A program made the position numbers and the translations under genes. A DNA stretch of 36,631 nt from Nanobdellota archaeon. Its GTDB lineage: Archaea > Nanobdellota > Nanobdellia > SCGC-AAA011-G17 > GW2011-AR17. Numbering within the stretch: the stretch's first letter is position 1; every line of letters starts with the position of its first letter. The notes beneath the pieces are model-generated. The model did no database searches, was not told where the DNA came from, and was given only the letters and a program-made list of their open reading frames with translations. This document shows, piece by piece, positions 2,185 to 31,655 of this stretch. The DNA lies in assembly GCA_018830945.1 (NCBI GenBank), contig JAHJRD010000086.1:1-36631 (forward strand), read 5' to 3'.

Positions 2185-2604
2185 CTACTTCCTGCTGCCT
2201 ATTGCCAGCCCCTTTTCCCCTTCAACAGCGCCATGATAATCTCTTGCAGTCCTGCCGCACTTCCCTGCATAAACCACCTTTATTACTTCAAGATTGCTGT
2301 CAAACCATATGTTCTCTATGCAGCCTTCATAAATTTCACCATAAAAGCCGTCCTGAAGCTGGTCCTGGTTGAACAAGACACCGCTATCTGCAATATTCTC
2401 AACAGACACTATGCTAAGGTAGTCTTGGCCGTTTACATTAATATCAAAGATATTCACGCCTGAGTGTCCTTTGCCTTTGTTTGCATCGCCGACTGTGTCT
2501 TGTGTTGTGCCTTTGCCGTTTTCCCTGCCGAATTGCTCGTTAGCATAGGCTAAAGGCAGCAGTAAAAGCAGAACAAAGGTTGCTGTCAAAATGTGTTTTT
2601 TCAT
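2185..2604 (-). CDS. Small secreted protein, unknown function
   Basis: 139 aa beginning with a typical Sec signal peptide (MKKH followed by a hydrophobic stretch rich in Leu and ending LAYANE), so the mature protein of about 118 aa is exported. Two cysteines (in YEGCIENIW and AGKCGRT) could form a disulfide outside the cell. The sequence GKGTTQDTVGDANKGKGHSG is low-complexity and Gly/Lys-rich. A good ribosome-binding site, gaggtga, sits a few bases before the ATG, which supports the start. It lies convergent with the LutB-like gene and downstream of two other minus-strand envelope genes, but the gaps are large enough for its own promoter. I do not recognise a family. Confidence 0.7.
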   Translation of the reverse strand: MKKHILTATFVLLLLLPLAYANEQFGRENGKGTTQDTVGDANKGKGHSGVNIFDINVNGQDYLSIVSVENIADSGVLFNQDQLQDGFYGEIYEGCIENIWFDSNLEVIKVVYAGKCGRTARDYHGAVEGEKGLAIGSRK

Positions 2605-2670
2605 TTGGTTTCACCTCATTTTTTTGTTACATCCCTATTATTTCAAACATTTAGCATTTCCTCCACTGCA

Positions 2671-2946
2671 TTAAAAGGTGGGTGTGATAAAATAAATTAA
2701 TAATATGAGTAGCAGGTTTAAAATAATTCCAGTTATAGCTATCCCCGCCCCTCTTAGTAAAGGATTTTTTATTATTTTAATTAGAGCGATAACACCTAAA
2801 ATACTAGCGAATAACAATATTAGCTCTATAACTCCGATAGCTCTAATTAAAATGCGAGGCCAACCTATTATAATACAACCGATTAGAACTATTGGAATTG
2901 CAAAAGGAAAAAATACCCAAATACTTATTTTTTGTGTTACACCCAT
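2671..2946 (-). CDS. Small integral membrane protein, three helices
   Basis: 91 aa, almost entirely hydrophobic, with three likely membrane helices (about residues 10-28, 33-57 and 67-88) separated by short loops; a basic KIIKN loop lies between the last two. The layout (helix, Gly/Ile-rich helix, final helix after a short NPLLRGAG loop) recalls small DUF4190-like membrane proteins but the match is weak. It lies 22 bases downstream of the large secreted metallopeptidase gene on the same strand and may be co-transcribed with it. The opposite-strand reading frame over this region is an artefact of its hydrophobic codons. Confidence 0.6.
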   Translation of the reverse strand: MGVTQKISIWVFFPFAIPIVLIGCIIIGWPRILIRAIGVIELILLFASILGVIALIKIIKNPLLRGAGIAITGIILNLLLILLIYFITPTF

Positions 2947-2968
2947 CTTATTTAACTTCCCTAAAGTC

Positions 2969-5170
2969 TTAAACTCCCGCTATTAAATCGTTAATAAGTG
3001 CTATTAATTCATCTTTTGAGAACTGGAACGGATTTTCCTTTTCATATTCTATTAACCACTTTTCTATTTTGTCCTTTATGTCCTTCTCCAATTTATTTTT
3101 TGCTCCAATTTTATTCTTTTGTTCTAACATTTTTTCTACAGCATTTATTTTATTATGTAATGCATTCCTTCTTTGTTCAGGATTATTTATAAAGCCATAG
3201 TCTGGTATACTCTCTATTGCATCGTAAAGTAGTTTGGTTGTTGGTATGATTTCTTTTAAAACTACCCCTTCCTGTGTAATTTGGATAGTAAACGTATTCT
3301 CCGGATAAGGTATTGCAAAAGCAAATCCCGTAAAGTCCATTTCTATACCATTAACTATAGGAAATTTAGCATCAAAGAATGTCTGAGCAAGTAATCCGCC
3401 CTTATCATTTAAAACTTTTATTGAGTAATTGCCTGAGATAATATCGCTAATTGTTCCGTTATGCAGTTTATACCATTCCATAGTTTGAACAGTACCGTTT
3501 TTATATATGACTCCATTTACAATTAGGAGTTGAGGATCAGCAGGGAACGTTTTTAATTTTTTAAATAGATGCTCATAATCCTGAATGCCCACCCATCTTT
3601 GTTTGTTATTCTGATCAAACCAACTGTTCTTTTCTGTTTGTGTACCCATAAAGCACACCTGTTCCTTTAGAGGTAATCTCTTTTCAACCCAAAAGCCATT
3701 AGCGCTTCTACCACCCTGCCCGTATATTTCATATTCTTCACATTTATGTGGACCAGATTCCCAAGAAAAACACCAACCAGTATCTATAGGCAATCCGTAC
3801 ATGTGTCCAATCTCATGAGCCGCAGCAGTCCAATATCCGTCTTGAATGAATACACCTTTAATATTTACGAACCAATCTAACCAACCAAGCTTAGCGTATG
3901 AAACTCCACCTGCTGAAGGTTCTCCAAATTGAAAGTCAAAATATTCAGAAGGGGCAACTCCAATTACTTGATCGGCAAAGGGGAGTAAAACTTTTCCTTG
4001 TGTAAATAATCTAGCTGAATCTACAACTGCACCAAGGATTGGTTGTGTGCTCAAAGAACAACCCTGATATTCATCATCCAGCTTCTGATTCTCAAACTCC
4101 CCGTCCGCCACAGGATATGTCGCCTTAATGAACTCGCCGCTCTTCTCCACAGTTTCCTGATAGCGGCTTAACGGACCAAGATAAGTTATAGGTATGTAAG
4201 CTATATTCAGCGGCTTTGTATCCTTCACCTCAATCCAGTAATCTCCATTATTATTGCTTTCATTTTCCTCTTCTATTACATTATAAGGATCAGCAGCTAC
4301 TGTAACGCCCCTCGTGCCTTCAAGATTCGGCGTTAGGTAAAAGTTTACAGTCCCGCCTGCTTTTAGCTCTCCTGCGGCAAGCGTTTCAAAATAGTCCATA
4401 CCTTCGTAACTCAACTTCAATGTAACAACAGTGCTGTCAGCAATCGCCTCCGGATTCTCAATACCAACATCCACGAGCACAGCCATCTGCTTGCCTTGCA
4501 CCATATCATCAATGCCATTGCCGTTGATGTCAGGATGATAGACAACCTGCACAGGTTTAATCTCAGAAATAGTCAAATCTGGCTTAACAGCTTCGCTTTC
4601 ATACTCAATTGTTATAATTACTTTATCCACTGTAACAGCCCAATAATTATAACTGTGCTGCGAGTCAACATTGATAAAAGCAGTCAAAGCAAGGGGATAT
4701 GGTAAGGAGCCAAAAATAGCATCAATCTGCGCTTTTGTAAGCGAAAAGACACTTGTTGACCACCCATTGCTACTGCCTTTAAGAACCCCCAAATACTGGT
4801 TATTAAGGTACACAAGATCAGTTTCATACGATGTTGGCGGCGGTATTCCATTAGTATTGTCAACATCCCAAGCCCTAACCTTTACTGTTACGGATTTAAT
4901 CTCTGAAACAGGCTTATGTTCCGGGTTCCAGTTATATACGCCTGTAATATCTTGCTTCCACCATGCATAAATATCAAAATTTGTGCCAGAATCAATAGTT
5001 ATAGTTGTTATCCAGCTGTCACCCAATGTTTCACTTGCGCCTGTTTCATCAATAGGGTCTATATAGGAGGTATTCGTTTCAATATCATTATATTCCTCAG
5101 CAGATATATTCTGAATAGCTATTATTCCTATTAAGAACATCACCCCTAACAAAAATATTCTCTTTCTCAT
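2969..5170 (-). CDS. Secreted zinc metallopeptidase-like protein with CARDB-like domain
   Basis: 733 aa. Residues 1-25 form a signal peptide (MRKRIFLLGVMFLIG, then NISAEE). An N-terminal beta-sandwich (about 30-195) is followed by a CARDB-like adhesion domain (about 200-320) that includes the hallmark DPYNVIEEENESNNN. The central part has the zinc-binding motif HEIGHMYGLP (HExxHxxGxP type), preceded by a stretch naming WTAAA, so a metzincin/M64-like extracellular protease is likely. The C-terminal 90 residues are charged and helical (from about 645), resembling the helical tail modules common in archaeal exported proteins. No C-terminal membrane anchor is seen. A BRE/TATA element (ccttatatagta, 5208-5219) lies 40 bases upstream. 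The substrate is unknown; roles in shedding or host-cell contact are speculation. Confidence 0.75.
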   Translation of the reverse strand: MRKRIFLLGVMFLIGIIAIQNISAEEYNDIETNTSYIDPIDETGASETLGDSWITTITIDSGTNFDIYAWWKQDITGVYNWNPEHKPVSEIKSVTVKVRAWDVDNTNGIPPPTSYETDLVYLNNQYLGVLKGSSNGWSTSVFSLTKAQIDAIFGSLPYPLALTAFINVDSQHSYNYWAVTVDKVIITIEYESEAVKPDLTISEIKPVQVVYHPDINGNGIDDMVQGKQMAVLVDVGIENPEAIADSTVVTLKLSYEGMDYFETLAAGELKAGGTVNFYLTPNLEGTRGVTVAADPYNVIEEENESNNNGDYWIEVKDTKPLNIAYIPITYLGPLSRYQETVEKSGEFIKATYPVADGEFENQKLDDEYQGCSLSTQPILGAVVDSARLFTQGKVLLPFADQVIGVAPSEYFDFQFGEPSAGGVSYAKLGWLDWFVNIKGVFIQDGYWTAAAHEIGHMYGLPIDTGWCFSWESGPHKCEEYEIYGQGGRSANGFWVEKRLPLKEQVCFMGTQTEKNSWFDQNNKQRWVGIQDYEHLFKKLKTFPADPQLLIVNGVIYKNGTVQTMEWYKLHNGTISDIISGNYSIKVLNDKGGLLAQTFFDAKFPIVNGIEMDFTGFAFAIPYPENTFTIQITQEGVVLKEIIPTTKLLYDAIESIPDYGFINNPEQRRNALHNKINAVEKMLEQKNKIGAKNKLEKDIKDKIEKWLIEYEKENPFQFSKDELIALINDLIAGV

Positions 5171-20299: not shown

Positions 20300-21312
20300 G
20301 GAAGAAGGCAGTTGTCGTATTAAGCCTGTCTGCAATTGCATTTTTCATCGCAGTTATCATGCTTTCCCATGATGTGATAAGGCTTGCCCCTGGCCCAAAA
20401 GCAGATTATCTTGGGCAGACTGAGATTAAGATGTTCAATGCGTATGTTTCAGGGGAGGAGCAGCGCCTTTACATTGACATGGCTGCAAAATATGCATATG
20501 ACAAGGCAGGAGGCAAGAACCAAATAAAGGAAGATGAGGATAAGTTTATGGCTGCATTTACTGAAGATTTTGAAAAGCGCCTTGAGTCATTTAATAGAAT
20601 ATACGGAGAAGGCGCGAAGCTTATATCTGCTGCTGACTTTGAGATTTCAGCTGATGAAAGCAGCATAAAAGGCATTACTGAAAATACACTTGTCATTTCC
20701 TCTGATGATTATACATATTTATTCAAGCCAAATTTCAGGATAATTTTTGAAGCAGATGTTGAAGAGTTTGTGCCGCCTGCTGAGATTGAGGAAACATGCA
20801 GCGCAGCTAACGGAGCATGCAGGCTTGAGTGTGATACAAATAGCGGTGAAAGTGCAATCGCAGGCGCTGTCTGCCCAAAATCCAGTGAAGGCCTTGCGCA
20901 GTACTGCTGCAAAATTCCGGCTGAAACATCTGCAGAATGCGTTGGAACAGGAGGCAGCTGCCAGGCAGGATGTGAATATGATGAAGAGCCTTTGGATATT
21001 AACTGCGGAACAGGCAAGCACTGCTGCAAGCCAAAAGAGGAAACAGTGCCTTTATTGCCTTCATGCACTGATATGGAAGGGATATGCAGGATAGGCCCGG
21101 CTGCTGGCGAAACTCTTTATACAGGCGCAACCTGTGAAAGGCCTAATGAGTTTTGCTTTGTCGGGCAAGAGCAAAATGAATGCGAAAGCAACGGCAATGA
21201 GTGCAAGGCATTAAGCTGCGAGCATCCTTCTTTGGCTGCTGAGTATATATCAATCCATGCGTATGATTCAGCCTGCGGAACAGGCAGGTACTGCTGCAAA
21301 AAAAGAAGCTAG
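20290..21312 (+). CDS. Anchored protein with four six-Cys modules
   Basis: 340 aa. A single N-terminal helix (about 8-27) anchors it. Residues 45-160 form a mixed alpha/beta domain. Residues 170-336 hold four modules of the same type as in the protein at 15739: C170-C207, C217-C246, C259-C289 and C298-C336. The third module lacks the third cysteine (Pro270 in its place) and the second cysteine of the CC pair (Phe290), a paired loss that suggests these two form a disulfide. It is the last gene of the operon, and its stop overlaps by 4 bases the 3' end of the convergent minus-strand operon. The function is unknown. Confidence 0.7.
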   Translation: MPIRKKAVVVLSLSAIAFFIAVIMLSHDVIRLAPGPKADYLGQTEIKMFNAYVSGEEQRLYIDMAAKYAYDKAGGKNQIKEDEDKFMAAFTEDFEKRLESFNRIYGEGAKLISAADFEISADESSIKGITENTLVISSDDYTYLFKPNFRIIFEADVEEFVPPAEIEETCSAANGACRLECDTNSGESAIAGAVCPKSSEGLAQYCCKIPAETSAECVGTGGSCQAGCEYDEEPLDINCGTGKHCCKPKEETVPLLPSCTDMEGICRIGPAAGETLYTGATCERPNEFCFVGQEQNECESNGNECKALSCEHPSLAAEYISIHAYDSACGTGRYCCKKRS

Positions 21313-21965
21313 AATCTCCTCATAACTCTTCTTGCAATCCCCATAACAGGAAACACAAAAGTAAGCATTGCTGCAATGTTCGCCCATGTTTCATTAAGCC
21401 CTATCAGCATGTAAAAAGTTATAATTTTGTCATAAAAGCCGCTCTCATCCTGCGAATAGCCATTATCGCCCTCTTTTGCTGTTTCTTCAAGTTCTCCTGC
21501 TTTTGACATGAATTCATCGCGCTTTTCAAAATAATCCGCATTTCTGATTGAAGACTCAAGATTATGGCAGATTGATTCAGCAGCGCTGTAATTGCCAAGC
21601 TTTATTTCAGCTTCAGCCTGCCTTAACTGCAGCGAATAATCAGCTTCCATTGTCTGCTGCAGCCTTTGCTCAAGGGATTTGTAAAAATTATCCATCCCTG
21701 TAAAAGCTTTCAGCTCTTCTGCGCATTTATCAGTATCTTCATAATCCCTGGCAAGCAGGTATTGCTCGCACACTGCAAGCTTTTCAAAGCCAGGCGCATT
21801 AACCTCCCCGCTATTACAAGAATCCATGCATTTTGTTGCCGCAAACCCCAAAGCGGCTGTGGCGGCAATGCCAAGCGCGATATATTTTATTCCGCGAAAC
21901 AGCCCCCTCTTATCCTGCCTTGCAGAGCCTGACAACAGAGACTCAATCCTTCTTTCATCAGGCAT
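21309..21965 (-). CDS. Membrane-anchored helical-repeat protein, last gene of the ubiquitin-like operon
   Basis: 218 aa. Two hydrophobic segments frame the protein: about 27-45 (KYIALGIAATAALGFAA) and a C-terminal one (about 184-210, MLIGLNETWANIAAMLTFVFPVMG). Between them is an acidic helical region with TPR-like character (NYSAAESICHNLESS and LLARDYEDTDKCAEELKAF) and four or so cysteines. It overlaps the HTH gene upstream by 8 bases, so it is co-transcribed. Its link to the modification genes is by position only; it might be a membrane target, a sensor or an unrelated passenger. Confidence 0.65.
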   Translation of the reverse strand: MPDERRIESLLSGSARQDKRGLFRGIKYIALGIAATAALGFAATKCMDSCNSGEVNAPGFEKLAVCEQYLLARDYEDTDKCAEELKAFTGMDNFYKSLEQRLQQTMEADYSLQLRQAEAEIKLGNYSAAESICHNLESSIRNADYFEKRDEFMSKAGELEETAKEGDNGYSQDESGFYDKIITFYMLIGLNETWANIAAMLTFVFPVMGIARRVMRRF

Positions 21966-22362
21966 TTTCCTGCTTTACCTCATCAACAATAAAATTCACT
22001 CTTTTTGCATTGCAAAGCTTTCCAAGCTCCTTGTCAAACATGTAAAAGCCGTGCATTTCCCGGAAAATTGCAAAAACAATAACCGGATAAGGGCCTGCTG
22101 CTGTAAAAAGCGCATTTACATTATAGCTTGAATCAAGATACTGCATCAGCTTCCTGCTTTTCGGCGCAAGAAAAAACATTGCATGCACTTCAAAACCCAT
22201 TGCGCGGAAATCAGGAATGATTGTATATTTTTTTATATATTTATTGCACTTTCTTAATGCCCTGGCTGCGCAATGCCTTGGCATGCCTGCCTTGCGCGCA
22301 ATTGCTGCCAGGCTCTGCCTTGCATCTTTCCTTAAAAGTTTTATAATCTCTTTTTCTTTCAT
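21958..22362 (-). CDS. Lrp/AsnC-like HTH protein
   Basis: 134 aa. The N-terminal helix-turn-helix (KEKEIIKLLRKDARQSLAAIARKAGMPRHCAARAL) has the Lrp/AsnC plan, in which the first helix lists LLRKDARxSLxxIA. The C-terminal part (about 50-130) has the alternating strand-helix pattern of an RAM/ligand-binding domain but is shorter and more divergent than usual. Its start codon overlaps the stop of the E1-like gene (ATGA, 4 bases). It may be the regulator of its own operon; a candidate operator in the leader of the operon is not evident beyond a small hairpin. Confidence 0.75.
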   Translation of the reverse strand: MKEKEIIKLLRKDARQSLAAIARKAGMPRHCAARALRKCNKYIKKYTIIPDFRAMGFEVHAMFFLAPKSRKLMQYLDSSYNVNALFTAAGPYPVIVFAIFREMHGFYMFDKELGKLCNAKRVNFIVDEVKQENA

Positions 22363-23606
22363 TGCGCCTCCTGATTATGACAAGCACAACCTTCTCCCTT
22401 CTTGCACGAACACTGCGCCTCAACAGGCAAATAAGATATTTTTTCGTGTATTGGCTTTTTAGAGAAATAAAGCAATTGCTTTTCAGGGTTTAGGAATTCC
22501 TTTGAATAAAAGCCAGCAGCCACTGCTCCTATCAATGCATTGCACATTACAATGTTTGATTCAGCCACAGAAGCGCAGCTTTCAGGCTTTTTTTGTTGCA
22601 ATTTGATTTTTCCGCGCCTGCATTCAAGGCATGTATTATTGCTTGCAACATCAAGCCTTGCTGTGAAAGCGCCAACGCCTGCATCAACAAGAGGAATATT
22701 GCTTTCAAGCGCATACCTGCTTATGAGCTTTCTTGCATGCCAGCTGTCAACACAGGAAAAAATTGCGCTGTAATCCTTGTTTGCTGCATGCTTTTCCTCA
22801 AAAAAGCAGCCATTTGCCTGTATTCTTGCATCAATAAGTGATTCAAGCTTCTGTTTCAGCGCAAGCGCCTTGTTTTTGCCAACAGCATCGTAATAAAGCA
22901 CCTGCCTGTTAAGGTTTGTTTCCTCAATATTGTCTCCGTCATATATCTCAATAGGGATGCCGAGCAATGCAAGGTTTAATGCAAGATAAGTGCCTATGCC
23001 TCCTGCTCCGATAACCAGCGCAGGCTTATGTTTTGCAATGATTGTTTTTGCATTAATGCTTAAAGCGCCTGAAACCCTTTCATCGCCAGGAAGATTAAGC
23101 AATGATTTTCTTGCCTCGTCCATGGCAATTGCAGCTATTAATCCAGATGTGAAAGAGCCTTGTAATTCTTCATATCCAGTGATTGGAGGCAAAGAATTAA
23201 GCATTGACTCAAGCCTGCTTCTTGGATATTCAACAGCAATCCCTGCCTTTGCTGCAGCAGACGAAGCGCTCATGTATGTGATTGAATGCCTTAATGCATA
23301 TTCCCTTGTTTTTTGTTTTGATTCAATGCTGTTTGTAAAATCAGCTATGATATCTGCTTTTCCGATAAAATCCGGCTCAAATTCCGTGTTTATTTCTGCA
23401 ATCTCAAGATCAGTATTAATCATTGACGCAAGCATTGGATCCAAAAACCCTTTTTCCCTGCCGGTAAACAATGTAATGCTTCCAATACCAAGACCTGCTG
23501 CATAAAGCAGGAAAAAGGATGCAATATTTGAATTTCCGATTACTGCAATTGAGCTGTTTCGAAGCACTGCTTGGTCAAATACCGCTGTTTGTTTTGAATA
23601 GTCCAT
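22359..23606 (-). CDS. E1/ThiF-like adenylating enzyme with two Rossmann halves
   Basis: 415 aa. Residues 1-190 look like a degenerate E1-type Rossmann half: YSKQTAVFDQAVLRNSSIAV then IGNSNIAS (20s) in place of GxGxxG. Residues 195-365 are a canonical half: GAGGIG (200-205), YDGDNIEETNLNRQ (222-235) with the R finger, GKNKA (243-247) and CVD (285-287). CLEC (326-329) and C344 follow; C344 in PESCAS is the best candidate for a thioester cysteine. A Cys-rich tail has C399, C401, C407 and C409. The inactive-plus-active arrangement resembles eukaryotic E1 and bacterial BilD and Cap2. It starts 1 base after the E2-like gene. It would activate the C-terminus of a ubiquitin-like protein using ATP. 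Confidence 0.88.
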   Translation of the reverse strand: MDYSKQTAVFDQAVLRNSSIAVIGNSNIASFFLLYAAGLGIGSITLFTGREKGFLDPMLASMINTDLEIAEINTEFEPDFIGKADIIADFTNSIESKQKTREYALRHSITYMSASSAAAKAGIAVEYPRSRLESMLNSLPPITGYEELQGSFTSGLIAAIAMDEARKSLLNLPGDERVSGALSINAKTIIAKHKPALVIGAGGIGTYLALNLALLGIPIEIYDGDNIEETNLNRQVLYYDAVGKNKALALKQKLESLIDARIQANGCFFEEKHAANKDYSAIFSCVDSWHARKLISRYALESNIPLVDAGVGAFTARLDVASNNTCLECRRGKIKLQQKKPESCASVAESNIVMCNALIGAVAAGFYSKEFLNPEKQLLYFSKKPIHEKISYLPVEAQCSCKKGEGCACHNQEAQ

Positions 23607-23607
23607 T

Positions 23608-24636
23608 TTAATTCCTGTTTGTCAGCAACTGCATATCAACCCTGCCTGTTATTTTCTGTGCGTCAAACCTTTTGTCACTAAGGTACGCATAGGGCTTTCC
23701 CCTGCTCCTGTATTCCTCTGTAAACACTGTTCTTGCCTTTTCCATCAGCTCAGCAATTTGCGCAACATAATTGCCAGGGTGCCTTCTCCTTATTGCATCA
23801 TAATCATAATTGCCTGTGCAGATTGCCTGCATGGCTTTGTTGGCAGAGGAGAGGGAGGGATGCGTATACGCATTAAGCACATGCAATTTTCCAAAATCAA
23901 TCCTGTTTTTGTTGAAGAAAATCCTTGAGCCGGCAACAGCTTCTGGAAATGCATAATAAGAGCCATTTCTTTTTTCATAAAGGATATATGGCGCAACCTT
24001 TGTTATTGCATAAAATTCATTATTAATTATCCTAAATCCAATTTTTCTTTCTGCATCATAATATTCTCCTGCAGCAAGCGCCTCAAGCGTTATTTTCCTT
24101 GCATAAAGGCAGGGCTTGCCAGCATTATTCTTTTTTAATGCATCCTGGTATGATTTTTCAAGCTCTGGTATTGTTGCAATAGGCGTTAATCCAAGATTGT
24201 AGCGCTTGTTTCCAATTTTCGCATTTGCTCCTGGCTCAAAAAGGGGGTATACATTGCCGTTAAGTATAAACAAGTCATGCATAGGCAATACTTTTTCTGC
24301 AATTTCAGGCTGTGTTTCAGGAAGGCGGCTGTTGACAATGAAATCAGCAAGCACCTGAAAGCTTGAATGAAAATGCGATGTCTGCGCTTCAAGCTTTTTC
24401 ACAGCAGATTCAATGCTGGATTTTCTTATGCAGTCAATTATTGAAGTATTCCTTAGCTTTTGCTCTATAAAGGCATGCTCAAGCTGCGCGACTGTGCCTG
24501 CCCTGGCAAGCCTTATCTCATGGCCGTAAAACTGCACAAACCCGTCTTTTCCATCCTCGTCTTTCCTGTACATTTCAGGATATGAGATTGCCGCGCAGGT
24601 TTTTGCAAGATAAGTGCTGAAAAAGCTTTCAGGCAT
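23608..24636 (-). CDS. Candidate E2-like conjugating protein
   Basis: 342 aa with no signal peptide. The C-terminal part (about 195-310) has a strand-rich region (IGFRIINNEFYAITKVAPYILY) followed by FGKLHVLNAYTHPSLSS and then MQAICTGNYDYD. This His-Pro (259-260) followed by Ile-Cys (272-273) and Gly is the spacing seen around the active-site cysteine of E2/UBC proteins (HPN...ICL) and in prokaryotic E2-like families of PRTRC and Bil operons. A following helix (VAQIAELMEKARTVF) fits. The N-terminal part (1-190) is helical and unrecognised. It overlaps the JAMM gene by 8 bases and is followed by the E1-like gene. The E2 role is inference from motif and neighbours. Confidence 0.6.
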   Translation of the reverse strand: MPESFFSTYLAKTCAAISYPEMYRKDEDGKDGFVQFYGHEIRLARAGTVAQLEHAFIEQKLRNTSIIDCIRKSSIESAVKKLEAQTSHFHSSFQVLADFIVNSRLPETQPEIAEKVLPMHDLFILNGNVYPLFEPGANAKIGNKRYNLGLTPIATIPELEKSYQDALKKNNAGKPCLYARKITLEALAAGEYYDAERKIGFRIINNEFYAITKVAPYILYEKRNGSYYAFPEAVAGSRIFFNKNRIDFGKLHVLNAYTHPSLSSANKAMQAICTGNYDYDAIRRRHPGNYVAQIAELMEKARTVFTEEYRSRGKPYAYLSDKRFDAQKITGRVDMQLLTNRN

Positions 24637-25885
24637 CTTTCACTCCTTTTGCCTTTTTCAGCATTGACTCTACCTTTTTCAGCAAGGGTTTTTTTCCAGG
24701 CATCTTTTCAATGATTGCTTTTGCCTCATTTAAGGGATTGATATAGACATCTAACGGAACGCCTGATTCTTCAATGCTTGAGAAAAGCTGAAAAATGGTT
24801 TTAGGGCTTGATTCAACTGCGCCTGAAAGCGCTGCAAATAAGTCAATCACTGCCTTGTCAGCGTGCATGTATCTTTTGCATGACTCAGAGCGCTGGTAAA
24901 AATCTATTGCAGAAAGGAATAATCCAACATAAAATGCATGCATCTCCGTTGCTTCAATGCATGGATCTTCTGAATCATATTGCCTGAAAGAGAATAACTG
25001 CTTTTCATTTACAATGTTTTCTATTGAGTCTTTTGCATTTGGCTTTTTAGGCAGCTTTTCCTTGTATTTATCTAACTCTTCATCTGAAAGCGCGATTACG
25101 TCTTCGATTGATTCTGCAAGCTCTTGAGGGTTATCACATTTAATTGAAAAACAGCCATATCTGCTTGTGATTTCAACTGCATTATTTTTAATCCGGGTTT
25201 TTGGGGATGCTTTTTTTCTGTAAGCAGGCATGTCCTTAAGCAAAAGGCCACTTATTGTGTAATTATTTGCCATGTTTTCAAGAACAGAAGTTGCCATTAT
25301 AGGATGGATATCTATTTTTGCTTTTTCCTGTTTAAGTTCATTGTTTTCAAGCGAAAAGTGCATTGCATCATATGCTTTATTGCTTCCATTGTAAGTGTCA
25401 CGGTTTATGACAATGCTTTGGAATGTTTCAGGAAGCTGTTCATGCACATTTTTTATTTCCGGCTTATAGTTAATGCTTAATTTGATTTTCATTCCCTGCA
25501 TTGTTTCTTTGTTAAACAACTTTATGCTTCCCGGATTAGAATAAGCATCCCATGCGTCAAGCAAATCATTCTCCCTTTGCATTGCTTTCAGCCTGTTTTT
25601 CACATGAGTGTGGTCTGTTGGCGAATGAAAGACAGGGAAATAGCCGTGGCTGTGCCACATGCCTGTTATGTTCATTCCCTGCTCATAGAGCTGCCTGTAA
25701 AGAAAATCCCCTGTCCCGCTTTCAGCGTCATCGCCGTGCTGTTCAGGAAAATAAAAGTCAGTTACTGCACTGCTGCCTTTCTCAGCAAGCAGATATCCCA
25801 TGCATTCAACATCCCTGCCAACAATACCTGATATTTCCCTTGCAGCCAGGCACATCCTGCTAAAAACTTCACTGCTCAGATGCAT
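24629..25885 (-). CDS. JAMM/JAB-domain metalloprotease-like protein with long extension
   Basis: 418 aa. Residues 1-135 hold a JAB/MPN domain with a complete JAMM zinc site: Glu27 (VECMGYLL), then His78-Ser-His80 (MWHSHGY), seven residues, Ser88 and Asp91 (SPTD). JAMM proteases cut ubiquitin-like proteins from targets or process their precursors. The remaining 280 residues are unrecognised; they include an acidic helical segment and a Lys-rich end KKAKGVKDA. It overlaps the first gene of the operon by 10 bases, and the E2-like gene by 8. All four catalytic residues are present, so an active isopeptidase or tail-processing protease is likely. The long C-terminal part might recognise the modifier or the target. 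Confidence 0.88.
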   Translation of the reverse strand: MHLSSEVFSRMCLAAREISGIVGRDVECMGYLLAEKGSSAVTDFYFPEQHGDDAESGTGDFLYRQLYEQGMNITGMWHSHGYFPVFHSPTDHTHVKNRLKAMQRENDLLDAWDAYSNPGSIKLFNKETMQGMKIKLSINYKPEIKNVHEQLPETFQSIVINRDTYNGSNKAYDAMHFSLENNELKQEKAKIDIHPIMATSVLENMANNYTISGLLLKDMPAYRKKASPKTRIKNNAVEITSRYGCFSIKCDNPQELAESIEDVIALSDEELDKYKEKLPKKPNAKDSIENIVNEKQLFSFRQYDSEDPCIEATEMHAFYVGLFLSAIDFYQRSESCKRYMHADKAVIDLFAALSGAVESSPKTIFQLFSSIEESGVPLDVYINPLNEAKAIIEKMPGKKPLLKKVESMLKKAKGVKDA

Positions 25886-26295
25886 ATTCCCACATCATCA
25901 TACAGCTTTACAGTCATGTCAAGGCAGTCATAGTCAGTGCCTTCAGGCGTCTTTCTTCTGTCAATGTAAGCAGCAACCTTTTCATCAAGCCCAAGTATCT
26001 CTGTATTGTCTTTTCTTTTCCTTGTGCTGTCAGCATTGTATGCTCTTACCTCGCAGGTTGTGTTCACGCCGTTGTGCTGCTGCAGATAGTCCCTTGCTTC
26101 CAATGCAACAGGCTCTGTTGAGTTTTTCACCATTGCCTCAAGCACTTCCCTGAATGTCACCTTTCTCAAATTAGCATCAAGCTCTGCATACACAGCCCTT
26201 GACTCATACATTGCCTTTTCATCGCCTTTTGCGTCTATTGATTTTCTCCTGTTCACTTCTGTGTTCAGGACTCCGACAAGCTTTGTTTCACCCAT
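25876..26295 (-). CDS. First gene of the ubiquitin-like operon, candidate modifier
   Basis: 139 aa with no signal or membrane segment. It begins MGETKLVGVLNTEV and ends DYDCLDMTVKLYDDVGICI. The last strand followed by Val-Gly-Ile-Cys-Ile would leave a C-terminal Gly if the JAMM protein removed the three end residues, but no Gly-Gly is present. I can see strand-helix-strand segments (for example TCEVRAYNAD, LDEKVAAYIDRRK, DMTVKLYDD) that could form a beta-grasp, not enough to assert it. It is preceded by a strong ribosome-binding site (aaaggaggataaaa) and overlaps the JAMM gene by 10 bases, the place taken by the modifier gene in many comparable operons. Alternative: an unrelated operon leader protein. 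Confidence 0.5.
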   Translation of the reverse strand: MGETKLVGVLNTEVNRRKSIDAKGDEKAMYESRAVYAELDANLRKVTFREVLEAMVKNSTEPVALEARDYLQQHNGVNTTCEVRAYNADSTRKRKDNTEILGLDEKVAAYIDRRKTPEGTDYDCLDMTVKLYDDVGICI

Positions 26296-27296: not shown

Positions 27297-27716
27297 ATGC
27301 AAAAGAGGTATTATTTAGACACTTCCATTTGGAGAGACTTCTATGAAAATCGTAAAGACAGGTTCCGGCCGTTGGGAGAGTGGGCTTTTGAATTATTCAA
27401 GAAAATAATACGCGAGAAGAGCGCCGTATTGTATTCAGAAGCTACATTCAAAGAATTAAGAGACTATTTCAGCATTGATGAAATCAAAAGGATATTCAGT
27501 ATCGTAGCTGGCAAGGGGCTTTTGGAAAAAGTAGAAATAAGTCAGGAGCAGAAAAGAGGGGCAGGCAACTTATGCAATATAAGGAATATACCATTTAATG
27601 ACTGCCTGCATGCAGTATTAGCAAGAGACAATTCAGCTATAATGGTTGCAAGGGATCATCATTTTGAATTGCTTGCAGATATAACTGAATCCAAAAAGCC
27701 TGAAGAGCTACTTTAA
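27297..27716 (+). CDS. PIN-domain protein, VapC-like nuclease
   Basis: 139 aa. It begins MQKRYYLDTSIWRDFYE, the first PIN acidic site (Asp8 in LDTS). An acidic position follows in YSEATFKEL, and the last sites are NDCLHAVLARDNSAIMVARDHHF. This matches PIN domains of archaeal VapC-type RNases, which cut RNA with Mg2+ or Mn2+. No antitoxin gene lies upstream on the same strand; instead, a ribbon-helix-helix protein is encoded on the opposite strand and their ends overlap by 9 bases. A TATA box ends 23 bases before the ATG, so the transcript is leaderless. Confidence 0.8.
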   Translation: MQKRYYLDTSIWRDFYENRKDRFRPLGEWAFELFKKIIREKSAVLYSEATFKELRDYFSIDEIKRIFSIVAGKGLLEKVEISQEQKRGAGNLCNIRNIPFNDCLHAVLARDNSAIMVARDHHFELLADITESKKPEELL

Positions 27717-27968
27717 TCCCCACTCTTTCATCAGCTGATTGCCAACCTTTTCTTTTGTCTTTTCAAGCTGTGCATCAGTTACATGCACTTTCGCAGCGCC
27801 CTTGAACTTTTCCAGCTTTTTTATTGTGATTTCCGCTTCTACTTTCCATATCATTTCCCTTATTGCCTCCCTTATGAACTCTGTCCTGTTATTGAAATGC
27901 AATGGCTTGATTAGCTTGTCCATTGTCTTTACAATGTCTTCCTGCAGCTTGAATGAGATTGTATTCAT
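27708..27968 (-). CDS. Ribbon-helix-helix DNA-binding protein
   Basis: 86 aa. The N-terminal MNTISFKLQEDIVKTMDKLIK...NRTEFIREAIREMI is a CopG/ParD/NikR-type ribbon-helix-helix domain, with a strand (ISFKL) for DNA contacts and two helices. The rest is a Lys/Glu-rich helical tail that could bind a partner. It converges on the PIN-domain gene and overlaps it by 9 bases, so it may be the antitoxin of that protein. It has a strong Shine-Dalgarno (aggagg) and an inverted-repeat operator right in front of it, which fits autoregulation. Confidence 0.85.
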   Translation of the reverse strand: MNTISFKLQEDIVKTMDKLIKPLHFNNRTEFIREAIREMIWKVEAEITIKKLEKFKGAAKVHVTDAQLEKTKEKVGNQLMKEWGLK

Positions 27969-27992
27969 TAAAAATTCCTCCTGAATTTTTAA

Positions 27993-28055
27993 GGTTCCGA
28001 AATATTCTATTTCGAAACCATGTATTATATTGTATTACGCATGTAATATATAAGG
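27993..28055 (-). promoter_or_regulatory. Promoter and inverted-repeat operator of the RHH gene
   Basis: The repeat ggttccgaaata (27993-28004), spacer ttc, and tatttcgaaacc (28008-28019) is a 12-base inverted repeat with one mismatch. On the minus strand it lies between a TATA box (ccttatatattac, 28043-28055) and the start codon at 27968, at or just after the expected transcription start. That is the classic position for autorepression by a ribbon-helix-helix protein. Confidence 0.65.
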
Positions 28056-28100
28056 TTTTTGGTGGTTTTATGTAGAAGAGGAAATTATAGAAATATAAAA

Positions 28101-28372
28101 TGCGGCAGAAGCCTGGAATTGTCCCATACCTTAACACTGGTGAATCCCCTGCTTTCCTCGGCCCTGCGACCCTGCAAGCGTTATTGCAGTTGGTTAAGGC
28201 TGCTCCATTCCTGGCCTGACCTGATTCCCAAAAGCAACGACCCTGCAGGACAAGGTGTCAACGGTACACAAGGGACCAATGCCAAAGCATGACCCGCTTC
28301 CAGGCGATAGCCCCTCCGTAGGTTCGTTTGAGGTTATAGGGTAGAACCAACACCCCGGCATATCCACCGCAG
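28101..28372 (-). ncRNA. Signal recognition particle RNA (7S RNA)
   Basis: Read on the minus strand, 28198-28222 gives aggtcaggccagg followed by aatggagcagcc, the conserved SRP helix 8 core (GGUCAGG...GGAAGNAGCAGCC type). The 5' part, atgccggggtgttggttc, and its partner segments fit the archaeal Alu domain. The ends pair as tgcgg (28368-28372 on the minus strand) with ccgca (28101-28105), closing helix 1, and a run of T follows the 3' end. A TATA box cctttataatc lies about 25 bases upstream (28392-28402). The RNA binds SRP19 and SRP54 and targets signal-peptide proteins to the membrane. The ends are estimates to within a few bases. The open frame at 28059-28292 on the plus strand is a shadow. 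Confidence 0.88.
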
Positions 28373-28391
28373 TTTAGAACGTGTATGGAGA

Positions 28392-28412
28392 GATTATAAA
28401 GGTTTCGGATTA
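28392..28412 (-). promoter_or_regulatory. BRE/TATA promoter of the SRP RNA
   Basis: On the minus strand the sequence is ctaatccgaaacctttataat: a BRE-like ccgaaa, then cc, then a TATA box tttataat, about 22-30 bases before the expected RNA start. The same arrangement recurs ahead of several protein genes here. Confidence 0.6.
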
Positions 28413-28428
28413 GAAAAATTAAAGGAGG

Positions 28429-28501
28429 ATGGCTGCAATGCAGCCATGGTATGATGGCAAAGCCATGGCTTTGCTTGTGTTCCCATGCCTTGCATGGGAA
28501 C
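28429..28501. repeat. Three consecutive perfect hairpins
   Basis: Three inverted repeats follow each other: atggctgc-aat-gcagccat (28429-28447), gcaaagccatggctttgc (28457-28474, an 18-base palindrome), and gttcccatgc-ctt-gcatgggaac (28479-28501, 10-base arms). They lie between the end of the HEPN gene and the SRP RNA promoter. They have no T-run and contain no gene. They could be a small palindromic mobile repeat, a transcription terminator or the 3' structure of the MNT/HEPN messenger. Confidence 0.75.
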
Positions 28502-28516
28502 TTGATAAGCGGCTTT

Positions 28517-28996
28517 CTACTTCCTCAGCATCAAATTAATGTTCTTAAGGAACTTCTCTGCATTTGCTATGCTCTCGCTTGCAGGCTCCATGTTTGCCTG
28601 CGGCAGCTTCCTGTATGTAAATTTCCCCCGCTTTGATTTTTCCCATTTAAAGATGCCGAGCAATTCATCTGCTTTCACAACAAGCGACTTGTAAATGTTC
28701 AGCAGCTTAACATCAATCTCACCTGACAATGTAAGCTTTTCAAATTCCACATATGTTTTTTGGTGCTCTTCCGGCGGCTCTGTGACAATCTCTTTTGAAG
28801 ATAAGAATGCTTTCGCAGAGTAGAATATACAGTAATAGGCATTGCTTATTGCATCGCTGAAAAAAGTTACATCTTCCTTTAATTCAAGTAAAAGCTTGAT
28901 TTCCGGAGTTATGGAAATCTTGAAAATCGCCCTTGCCAGATCAAGCTCATTTTTTGCCCGCTCCAGATATAATCTCGCCTTTGAATCCATGCTCAT
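28517..28996 (-). CDS. HEPN-domain protein of an MNT/HEPN pair
   Basis: 159 aa. The pattern of helices with AISNAYYCIFYSAKAFLSS followed by EEHQKTYVEFEKL is that of the HEPN family, whose members often are RNases or toxins. The catalytic Rx4-6H motif is not apparent: the late region has YRKLPQANMEP instead, so it may be a non-catalytic or divergent member. It overlaps the 3' end of the nucleotidyltransferase gene by 50 bases if it starts at ATG 28996, and somewhat less from ATG 28990. The pair resembles HepT/MntA-type two-gene modules. The last residues are LMLRK. Confidence 0.75.
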   Translation of the reverse strand: MSMDSKARLYLERAKNELDLARAIFKISITPEIKLLLELKEDVTFFSDAISNAYYCIFYSAKAFLSSKEIVTEPPEEHQKTYVEFEKLTLSGEIDVKLLNIYKSLVVKADELLGIFKWEKSKRGKFTYRKLPQANMEPASESIANAEKFLKNINLMLRK

Positions 28997-29591
28997 GCGC
29001 CTCCTTTACAAGCTGGTAATAAATATCTGCGTTAAGAAACAGCTTATGCCTTATTAAGATTTGCTTTGCAAGGTTTTCTTCAGGCCTTAACAGCATCTTT
29101 ACAAAATCTTCAAATGTTATGTAGTGCTCATCTATATGCACAGGATAATTTAGCTTAATTTCATTAAAATAAGGCTTAATCTTCTTCTCTTGTATTGCAT
29201 TTTCCACAAGGAAGCATATGTCCATATCGGAATCTTTTTTCTGCTTGCCTTCTGCATAGCTTCCGAATACGAGCAGGCAGTAATTTTTCTCCGGAATTGC
29301 CTTTATTGCTTCTGAAATGACATTTGTGCATGGAAAACCAAGATTTTCCTGCGCTTCAAGGTATTGCAGCATATGAAACAGCAATGGATTGCCCCAGTTT
29401 AAGCTGTAAATATCAAGATTGCCTTTTCTTTCTGAAGCCAAAAGCCCATTTTTAACAAGCTCCTTAAGCGCGTTAAACACCCATGGCTTTGTATTCTTCT
29501 TTGCAATTTGCATTATCTCAGATATGCTCAACCCTTGAAAGGGGCTGCTTTTCCACGCATTTAGCAGGTTCAGCTTTTCATTTGAAATCAT
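28947..29591 (-). CDS. MNT-type nucleotidyltransferase with N-terminal winged helix
   Basis: 214 aa. Residues 1-75 form a winged-helix domain (SISEIMQIAKKNTKPWVFNALKELVKNGLL then a wing). Residues 105-215 form a minimal nucleotidyltransferase with GSYAEGKQKKDSDMDICFLV: the GS motif and the SDxD pair of metal-binding acids, plus a later acidic position near VHIDEHY. Related MntA proteins silence a HEPN toxin partner by adding AMP. The HTH domain could also repress the operon. The promoter carries inverted repeats at 29606-29644. The C-terminal end overlaps the HEPN gene by up to 50 bases. Confidence 0.85.
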   Translation of the reverse strand: MISNEKLNLLNAWKSSPFQGLSISEIMQIAKKNTKPWVFNALKELVKNGLLASERKGNLDIYSLNWGNPLLFHMLQYLEAQENLGFPCTNVISEAIKAIPEKNYCLLVFGSYAEGKQKKDSDMDICFLVENAIQEKKIKPYFNEIKLNYPVHIDEHYITFEDFVKMLLRPEENLAKQILIRHKLFLNADIYYQLVKEAHEHGFKGEIISGAGKK

Positions 29592-29605
29592 ATAATTTAT
29601 GTAAT

Positions 29606-29644
29606 GTTACTTATTTAAATAACTATCGTTACTTTTATAAGTAA
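29606..29644 (-). promoter_or_regulatory. Promoter with inverted repeats for the MNT/HEPN pair
   Basis: ttactt (29629-29634), spacer ttat, and aagtaa (29639-29644) form a perfect inverted repeat over a TATA-like cttataaaag (minus strand). A second repeat-like segment, gttacttatttaaataac (29606-29623), shares gttactt with it. They lie 15-53 bases before the nucleotidyltransferase start and could be operators for its winged-helix domain. Confidence 0.45.
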
Positions 29645-29657
29645 TAATAAGAAAAGA

Positions 29658-29927
29658 TTAAAATCCAAGCAGATGATGCCTTAATTTCCTTCTCTGTGAA
29701 AGCAATTTTAGCTTTTTATTCATTCTTTGTATTTCTTCCGCTTTCCAGCCGCTCTTGTTAATATGCCTTATCATTGATTTGTCTTTGTTAAATCTTAAGC
29801 CATCATGCCAGGTCTCCCATGAGTCATAGAAATATAAGAACGCTTCAGGCACTTCGCGCATCATGTCTTTTACCCTGCCTTTGAAAGAAGGGTATACTCT
29901 TCCGTTTTTCTTTTTGTAGCGCTTCAT
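29658..29927 (-). CDS. Small basic protein, unknown
   Basis: 89 aa, strongly basic and rich in aromatic residues (EAFLYFYDSWETWHDGLRF), with Lys/Arg clusters at both ends (MKRYKKKNGR and SQRRKLRHH). No cysteine, membrane segment or signal is present. It is isolated on the minus strand between the MNT/HEPN pair and the CPT-like kinase. It might bind nucleic acid. The start ATG at 29927 has no clear ribosome-binding site; a leaderless start is possible. I do not recognise the family. Confidence 0.55.
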   Translation of the reverse strand: MKRYKKKNGRVYPSFKGRVKDMMREVPEAFLYFYDSWETWHDGLRFNKDKSMIRHINKSGWKAEEIQRMNKKLKLLSQRRKLRHHLLGF

Positions 29928-29990
29928 GCAAGAATAGCGGGATTTTATGTTTAAAAGTGTTTGCCAAATATAAGCTTTGTAATTTTAATA

Positions 29991-30014
29991 AAAGTTTCGG
30001 AAATTTGAAACTTT
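29991..30014. terminator. Inverted repeat between two minus-strand genes
   Basis: aaagtttc (29991-29998) and gaaacttt (30007-30014) form an 8-base perfect inverted repeat around an 8-base loop, about 30 bases after the stop of the CPT-like gene (minus strand). It could be its terminator, though there is no clear T-run. Confidence 0.4.
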
Positions 30015-30044
30015 GACCGGAAAAATGAACTTTACAAATAATTT

Positions 30045-30647
30045 TTACTTCACAGCATAGAACTTCTCAGCAAAAGGCACATAAACTGCAGAATCTCTTG
30101 CTTTCATGAAACCCACAATAACAGATGCGCACTCATAAGAGCTCATTTCACCAGTATCGATTTCCAGATCATATCTCTTGCCCTTATGGACATGCGGGAA
30201 CTGCATCTCCGCGATTCCCTCTGTCCTGTCTCCCCTTGCTCTTTCCCGCTGTTTGAGTTTTTCAAGCGGGCAAAGCACCCCGACAAGAGCAATATTATAA
30301 GGAGATAACTTTACAACACAATCATCTATAATTGACTGCCACCAAAGAACATGGTCCAAGATATAAGTCCGGCCTTTTTCAAGATTTTCGGCAATCTCAG
30401 AATGATAAGCAGAAATAACTTCTGTTGACAGTTCTTTTGACTGCTTTCTAACTTCCTCATTGTCTTTTCCGAGTTTATCGATCAATGCAACCAGGCCATT
30501 AACCCTATCAGGATTCTGTTCTGCCCAATTTTCCCCGAAATCGTCCACAGAGAGATAAATATATGAAGGCAGCAGCTTCTCCAGCTCTCTTGCTATTGAA
30601 GTCTTGCCGGAGCTTGAGGCTCCGTTCAATAATATTGATTTTGCCAT
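30045..30647 (-). CDS. P-loop kinase, chloramphenicol phosphotransferase-like
   Basis: 200 aa. A P-loop, GASSSGKTS (9-17), is followed by LSVDDFGENW, then a lid-like REARGDRTEG segment and HVHKGKRYDLEIDTGEMSSYECASVI, which matches the CPT-like family (PF07931-type). Members phosphorylate small molecules with ATP; the type member modifies chloramphenicol, but many have other, unknown substrates. Here the substrate is unknown and resistance should not be assumed. A TATA box (cctttatatacc, near 30670-30680) lies about 25 bases before the ATG, so the start is leaderless. It is divergent from the Fic-like gene. Confidence 0.75.
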   Translation of the reverse strand: MAKSILLNGASSSGKTSIARELEKLLPSYIYLSVDDFGENWAEQNPDRVNGLVALIDKLGKDNEEVRKQSKELSTEVISAYHSEIAENLEKGRTYILDHVLWWQSIIDDCVVKLSPYNIALVGVLCPLEKLKQRERARGDRTEGIAEMQFPHVHKGKRYDLEIDTGEMSSYECASVIVGFMKARDSAVYVPFAEKFYAVK

Positions 30648-30696
30648 GCGTAGAAGGCGCTTTACAGAGGTATATAAAGGTTAGCTATTTCAGCCG

Positions 30697-30740
30697 TTGT
30701 AGTCCCAACCAAAAGCTTTAAATATTTGTAGTCCCAACCA
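30697..30740 (+). promoter_or_regulatory. Fic-like gene promoter with a repeated 15-mer
   Basis: ttgtagtcccaacca occurs twice, at 30697-30711 and 30726-30740, with 29-base spacing, and a TATA box (ctttaaatatt, about 30715-30725) lies between the copies. ATG 30747 follows the second copy, so the transcript would be nearly leaderless. A protein binding both copies would cover the TATA box and the start site. Confidence 0.6.
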
Positions 30741-30746
30741 GAAGAT

Positions 30747-31655
30747 ATGGTATTTGTTGAGAAGTACAGGTCAAAGGACCACGCATATTACAGGCTCAGC
30801 CACAGCATACGGAAGAATGGCAAGATAGCCCACGAAAAGAGGCAGATAGGCAGGGCCCTGCCGCCGAAAGCAAGGCTTGAGCAGATGAAAAAAGAGTTCT
30901 TAAAGGAGCTGGAGGGAGGGAAGTATAAGTATCTCAGCCCAAAAGAAGCAGAAGCAGCGGAAAACAGAAGAGCAAGCTACAGGAAAGAAGAAAAAAGCCT
31001 GAGCCCGCTGGAAAAGGAAAAAAAGCTGAAAGAGTTTATTATCAGGTTCACTTACGACAGCAGCAAGCTGTCAGGCGTGGATGTCACATTAAGGCAGACT
31101 TATCTTATATTAAAAGAAGGAATCATGCCCAAGGATATCCATAACTTAAGGACTGCAAAAGAGCTGGAAAACCACGAGAAGGGAATAATAGCAATAACCA
31201 AATATAAGGGCAACCTAAACATTAATTTCATTAAAAGGCTCCATAGGATACTGTTTTCAGGGGTTGATGAAGTGATTGCAGGGAAATTAAGAAGCGAATT
31301 AAAGAGAAACGTAAAGATTGCAGGAACATCCTATGTGCCGCCAAAATGGCGGGAAATCCAAAAAGAAATGAATATTTTCTTTAAATGGTATAAGCCAGAG
31401 CACAAAAAGCTTCATCCCATTGAATTGGCTGCACTTATACATTTAAAGCTGGTTTCAATTCAGCCGTTTGCAGACGGAAACAGCAGGCTGTCAAGGCTTT
31501 TGATGAACTGGGTATTATGGAAGAAGGATTATCCGCCTGTTGACATCCCTGTCGAGGATTTGGAGAGTTATTATGGTGTGCTTGACAGGTACCAGGTTGA
31601 GAAAGATGAAAAGCCGTTTGTTGAATATATCCTTAAATGGTATTTGAAGGGGTAG
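30747..31655 (+). CDS. Fic-fold protein with degenerate active site
   Basis: 302 aa. Residues 1-40 (VFVEKYRSKDHAYYRLSHS... GKIAHEKRQIG) are a small beta domain seen in archaeal Fic proteins. The Fic core is at about 95-300. The motif expected as HPFxDGNGRxxR is QPFADGNSRLSR (239-250): the catalytic His is Gln239 and the second Gly is Ser246. The region where the inhibitory Glu of an SSxIEGN-type motif would lie reads SSKLSGVD (105-112), without the Glu. The fold and helices are kept (HLKLVSI, FIKRLHRILF). Loss of His should abolish AMP transfer, so this may be a pseudo-enzyme or use a different chemistry. Its 3' end overlaps the MazG-like gene by 23 bases. Confidence 0.85.
   Translation: MVFVEKYRSKDHAYYRLSHSIRKNGKIAHEKRQIGRALPPKARLEQMKKEFLKELEGGKYKYLSPKEAEAAENRRASYRKEEKSLSPLEKEKKLKEFIIRFTYDSSKLSGVDVTLRQTYLILKEGIMPKDIHNLRTAKELENHEKGIIAITKYKGNLNINFIKRLHRILFSGVDEVIAGKLRSELKRNVKIAGTSYVPPKWREIQKEMNIFFKWYKPEHKKLHPIELAALIHLKLVSIQPFADGNSRLSRLLMNWVLWKKDYPPVDIPVEDLESYYGVLDRYQVEKDEKPFVEYILKWYLKG

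Follow-up and report, generated by a model that had tools for sequence, protein, structure and literature searches.

A predicted ubiquitin-like modifier with a Val-Gly end, encoded beside JAMM, E2-like, and E1-like proteins in a Nanobdellota archaeon

Ubiquitin-like systems comparable to the archaeal cassette

The eukaryotic modifier UFM1 has a β-grasp fold. Its E1, UBA5, contains one adenylation domain, its E2, UFC1, lacks the HPN motif, and the UFSP enzymes are cysteine proteases. In bacteria, the Bil, Bub, and type II CBASS systems each combine E1, E2, JAB/DUB, and a ubiquitin-like protein (Ubl) in one operon. The archaeal SAMPs end in Gly-Gly and are not known to require an E2.

Trimming of a modifier precursor back to glycine has several precedents. 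The UFM1 precursor loses Ser-Cys before activation, and UFSP proteases thereby produce a mature end of Val and a single Gly that is left on lysine (PMC9638016). BilC trims BilA, exposing its Gly (PMC11354881). In the Caldiarchaeum ubiquitin operon (CsUb/E1/E2/RING/Rpn11), the JAMM of the archaeal system itself cuts the ubiquitin precursor CsUb after its Gly and so removes its tail (PMC6043591).

Here we describe an operon in a window of 36,631 nucleotides (the whole stretch of DNA analyzed), the first gene of which encodes a 139-residue protein, P0001. P0001 is very probably the precursor of a ubiquitin-like modifier that is trimmed by a JAMM peptidase to an end of Val-Gly, activated by an E1, and transferred by an E2. 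Like UFM1, P0001 carries Val-Gly followed by a short tail, the removal of which is predicted; unlike UFM1, the archaeal cassette supplies a JAMM rather than a UFSP protease. We found no sequence similarity between P0001 and UFM1, and the likeness is therefore a resemblance and not membership. The cassette shares with the Caldiarchaeum operon an archaeal Ubl precursor, a JAMM, an E1, and an E2, but CsUb carries 9 residues after its Gly-Gly, and no RING gene was noticed in the present cassette on inspection. Moreover, the modifier, E2, and JAMM families of the cassette have no close sequence match to those of Caldiarchaeum or other known systems.

The bacterial operons resemble the cassette in their gene content and in the trimming of BilA, a step predicted for P0001, and BubB is the most plausible, though non-significant, fold match of the E2-like protein P0003. 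In contrast, the E1-like protein P0004 is only distantly similar to the bacterial enzymes (PADLOC E1-E2, 4e-13; NCBIfam 6A-MBL, far below cut-off), and it contains two Rossmann domains and no fused E2. The Bil, 6A, and CBASS system models of PADLOC and NCBIfam gave partial E1 matches alone, which were below the NCBIfam cut-offs, and the modifier had no convincing match in PADLOC. The SAMP/UbaA/HvJAMM1 system likewise consists of an archaeal Ubl, an E1-like protein, and a JAMM, whereas the present cassette has in addition an E2-like protein, a tandem E1, and a precursor tail; P0004 scores 42 bits against the SAMP E1 model, which has a cut-off of 450.

The predicted modifier gene and its partners

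The features of the modifier gene are as follows.

25876..26295, minus strand: P0001, 139 aa, predicted ubiquitin-like modifier precursor (Shine-Dalgarno sequence, orthologues, near-invariant G136, weak β-grasp matches)
25888..25893, minus strand: codons of Val135-Gly136, the predicted mature C-terminus (invariant in 6/6 orthologues)
25879..25887, minus strand: codons of Ile-Cys-Ile, the predicted removed tail (variable in relatives, low pLDDT at 134-139)

An earlier note, made from the letters of the window, had described a gene of 139 residues ending in Val-Gly-Ile-Cys-Ile and a JAMM gene that begins 10 bases inside its 3' end. Both descriptions proved correct. The 139-aa open reading frame runs from 26295 to 25876 on the minus strand, ends in DMTVKLYDDVGICI, and is preceded on its 5' side by a strong Shine-Dalgarno sequence, aaaaggaggataaaaATG. 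Its product terminates in DDVG-ICI, with Gly136 encoded at 25890-25888 and Ile-Cys-Ile at 25887-25879; the ATG of the JAMM gene (25885-25883) lies within the last 10 bases of the P0001 gene. The reading frame is real, because orthologues with 64-69% identity and identical gene order are found in three further members of the genus, and distant orthologues (26-28%) are also present in two genomes of another family.

P0001 gave no significant Pfam or PDB match to any ubiquitin-type family, UFM1 included, and searches of Pfam, NCBIfam, PADLOC, and PDB sequences with the modifier and the E2-like protein returned nothing meaningful. RPA32 matches of the modifier (E 0.013) covered its N-terminal part only and were treated as chance. 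An AlphaFold model built on six sequences reached a modest pLDDT of 68, with very low confidence at residues 134-139, which is consistent with a flexible tail in the modeled protein. Foldseek found no significant match to this model. The top 14 matches include RA domains, SAP18, PLC-epsilon RA1, PI3K-alpha, and the plexin RBD; by our own classification of these weak matches, RA, RBD, and SAP18 domains account for 8 of the top 23, including ranks 1, 2, 3, and 5. We take these domains to be ubiquitin-like β-grasp folds. These weak matches, with a best E of 0.13 at a pLDDT of 68, favor a β-grasp fold of P0001 without proving it. The earlier note had made its proposal depend on such a fold, which is thus uncontradicted, the best matches being mostly β-grasp, but falls short of being established.

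P0001 is followed by five further genes, in the order JAMM, E2-like protein, tandem-Rossmann E1, Lrp-type HTH protein, and predicted membrane protein. Each gene either overlaps its neighbor by a few bases or is separated from it by one base, and an operon is therefore likely.

24629..25885, minus strand: P0002, 418 aa, JAMM/JAB metalloprotease, predicted processing and deconjugating peptidase (Pfam Prok-JAB, motif, overlap)
23608..24636, minus strand: P0003, 342 aa, E2-like conjugating enzyme (H259-P260...I272-C273-x-G275 motif)
22359..23606, minus strand: P0004, 415 aa, E1-like activating enzyme, a single chain that holds two ThiF/Rossmann domains (Pfam ThiF)
21958..22362, minus strand: P0005, Lrp/AsnC-type winged-helix protein (sub-threshold AsnC/Lrp model matches)
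21309..21965, minus strand: P0006, predicted membrane-anchored coiled-coil protein (no Pfam match)

The JAMM motif (E...HxHx7Sx2D) is complete in P0002, as E27...H78-S-H80-(x7)-S88-x2-D91. The protein scores 23.8 bits against Pfam Prok-JAB (E 4.3e-5; cut-off 25), and its genome-level match to the same model exceeds the cut-off. P0003 matched no Pfam family, Prok-E2 included. Among 21 diverse members of its family, the P260 and C273 of an HP(N)...Cys motif are invariant, and H259 and G275 are kept in at least 90%. The most plausible Foldseek match of its structural model, BubB (9eae_C), is not significant (E 1.7, TMt 0.43). P0003 is best termed E2-like, an assignment made from its motif, its position, and one weak fold match, without a family model.

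Pfam ThiF matches the C-terminal half of P0004 (4.5e-37), and the N-terminal half is homologous to it (hhalign probability 99.6, E 5e-24). The first of the two nucleotide sites is degenerate and the second is intact, and P0004 thus looks like a fused E1 pseudo-dimer. GAGGIG (GxGGxG) and C344 are invariant among five P0004 orthologues, and Cys344, a candidate catalytic residue, is kept in nearly all family members holding that region. The closest sequence relatives of P0004 in the PDB are the SUMO E1 subunit UBA2, ThiF, MccB, and MoeB. P0005 is likely a regulator; a similar gene follows the JAMM or E1 in the related cassettes L017-L020, L047, and L051. Genes like P0006 stand at the operon end in L017, L018, and L047.

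We infer the following route, including its cleavage site, thioester steps, conjugation, targets, and reversibility. P0001 would be made as an inactive precursor, from which the adjacent JAMM would remove Ile-Cys-Ile after Gly136. The tandem-Rossmann E1 would adenylate the exposed single Gly and take up the modifier as a thioester, with Cys344 as the candidate residue. The E2-like protein (HP...Cys273) would then accept the modifier and transfer it to an amine group of a target, and the JAMM would probably also take the modifier off again.

The near-terminal glycine in the cassette family

Five other genomes, three of the same genus and two of another family, carry an orthologue of P0001 within the same cassette, and an E1 alignment scan of 85,000 species genomes recovered exactly these five cassettes. 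Their carriers are labeled Nanoarchaeota, Nanoarchaeia, or Woesearchaeota. The earlier note had proposed comparing homologues for an invariant glycine near the C-terminus followed by variable residues, and this is the pattern observed. V135 and G136 are invariant in 6/6 orthologues and belong to just 19 invariant residues, whereas the tails vary: VG-ICI in P0001, and VG-NGTA, VG-NGSA, VG-CR, VG-GK, and VG-GK in the others. A seventh, more distant modifier ends in VG-V.

The cassette family extends well beyond these orthologues. A P0003 profile found matches in 27/371 genomes of the phylum, and a broader profile did so in 32/378 sampled genomes of the class. We inspected 40 of the E2-matched regions. 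Most contain a small first gene together with genes for the HP...C protein, JAMM, and tandem E1, in slightly variable order; some are truncated or are without one recognizable cassette member. One weak match, in G007 (L006), sits in a giant ORF and was dropped as chance. Tandem pairs of E2-like genes occur in L067 (2780-6322) and L054 (7043-9961). A scan of viral contigs found no relative of the cassette.

Twenty diverse first-gene proteins were also aligned without guidance; except for two close orthologues, they are 10-30% identical to P0001. In this alignment, M1, Y110, and G136 are the sole near-invariant positions, with G136 kept in at least 90%. Of 43 first-gene proteins, 37 share one C-terminal pattern: a hydrophobic strand and a few residues lead to a Gly that sits in nearly the same 12-residue register, and a tail of 1-19 variable residues comes after it. 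For this count, cleavage points were set manually so as to fall after a Gly; unguided support comes from the G136 column in the six-orthologue and 20-member alignments. The residue before this Gly is G in 23 of the 37, V in 7, A in 2, S in 2, and L, P, and M in 1 each. None of the 37 terminates at the Gly itself, and all would therefore need trimming. The Val-Gly and Gly-Gly groups are homologous by profile comparison (hhalign 95.9%, E 5e-9), so the Val-Gly end is a variant within a mainly Gly-Gly family. The proposal that P0001 is a modifier without Gly-Gly, made as a precursor and processed by the product of the next gene, thus gains support from its homologues, with the amendments that most relatives carry Gly-Gly, Val-Gly being one variant, and that cleavage is a prediction.

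The Gly is missing in 6 of the 43 first-gene proteins. Two of these, L060:7705-8151 and L062:1-270, have Gly-Ala at the predicted site (QEGA, then a long tail), and the JAMM is retained; four have no Gly there at all. Modifier-like copies without a C-terminal Gly lie at L061:5112-5576, L074:3941-4324, and L081:4362-5296, and those in L061 and L074 adjoin a Gly-bearing copy. Such copies are possibly a non-conjugated partner or a decaying duplicate.

None of the models of Pfam, NCBIfam, or PADLOC matched the cassette family, and our search of mainly open-access journal papers found no description of the cassettes. On balance, we favor the view that they form a previously undescribed, fast-diversifying family of complete Ubl-E1-E2-JAMM cassettes in tiny, uncultured archaea with small genomes, in which the Gly is fixed while the residue before it is free to vary (G, V, A, S, P, L, M), and in which the Val-Gly branch reached a UFM1-like end independently. 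With that position free, each JAMM and E1 may be adapted to the modifier end of its own cassette. The cassettes would then represent widespread archaeal Ubl conjugation that employs a two-domain E1 and an E2-like protein of its own, in lineages whose genomes are very small. They would also be a case in which the Gly-Gly rule is naturally relaxed within one homologous family, and would supply a matched set of proteases and modifiers for probing the requirements of JAMM and E1 enzymes.

Alternative explanations and genomic surroundings

The small protein might instead be a sulfur carrier of the ThiS/MoaD/SAMP type, with its Gly adenylated by the E1 and converted to a thiocarboxylate for biosynthesis or tRNA thiolation, and with the E2-like protein as the acceptor enzyme. 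ThiF and MoeB are indeed among the relatives of P0004, and 1 of 20 modifiers gave a faint ThiS match (E 0.077). We consider this improbable. Elsewhere in the genome are a distinct ThiS-family gene and another ThiF-like gene, and in nearly every cassette examined the modifier is joined by an HP...C E2-like protein, a JAMM, and a tandem E1. In addition, the tag differs greatly between neighbors, which would be unusual for a housekeeping carrier.

Similarly low odds attach to a genuine Ubl with another mature end, produced by JAMM cleavage at a different position or by an exopeptidase that trims the tail, with the JAMM confined to deconjugation. The orthologues in G045 and G056 could be cut one residue later, behind the second Gly (VGG-K instead of VG-GK); Gly-Ala occupies the site in two cassettes; and the JAMM could act on conjugates only. 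However, the other lineages keep the register at Gly136, and JAMMs are known from other systems to process Ubl precursors.

Least probable of all is that Val-Gly and the tail have no protein function and are conserved as start-region DNA of the overlapping next gene: the tail does overlap the JAMM start in the four same-genus genomes, with Gly codons 1-5 bases before the start, but Val-Gly is still kept in G045 and G056, where the E2 and not the JAMM is the overlapping gene, and in L052 41 bases separate the Gly codon from the next start, while in 26 of 37 loci the codon lies at least 17 bases before that start, so an overlap or ribosome-binding-site origin is contradicted by the distant-codon loci and was rejected.

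Gly-Gly near the end was seen in 15 of 104 other cassette proteins versus 25 of 43 modifiers. JAMM, E1, and other proteins in L047, L048, L050, L062, and L086 end in Gly-Gly plus a short tail, for example GGKK. These ends may be in-frame Shine-Dalgarno codons, or there may be more than one processed protein.

Beside the cassette, at positions 27297-31655 of the window, lie toxin-antitoxin-like genes for PIN, RHH, HEPN, nucleotidyltransferase, chloramphenicol-phosphotransferase-like kinase, and Fic proteins, and PIN/RHH-like and MNT/HEPN-like genes were noted by eye near the cassette of L017. Given this proximity to PIN/RHH, MNT/HEPN, and Fic genes, defense and stress regulation are both possible roles, and we do not firmly choose either. 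Proteasome subunits are encoded in the same genome. In two other genomes, an AAA+ ATPase (AAA_2, Clp-like) adjoins the cassette (L048:2-1183 and L056:1114-2475), which hints that tagged proteins may be unfolded or degraded. In L052, where the modifier ends in VG-V, a transglutaminase-like protein is encoded after the JAMM (2302-3663).
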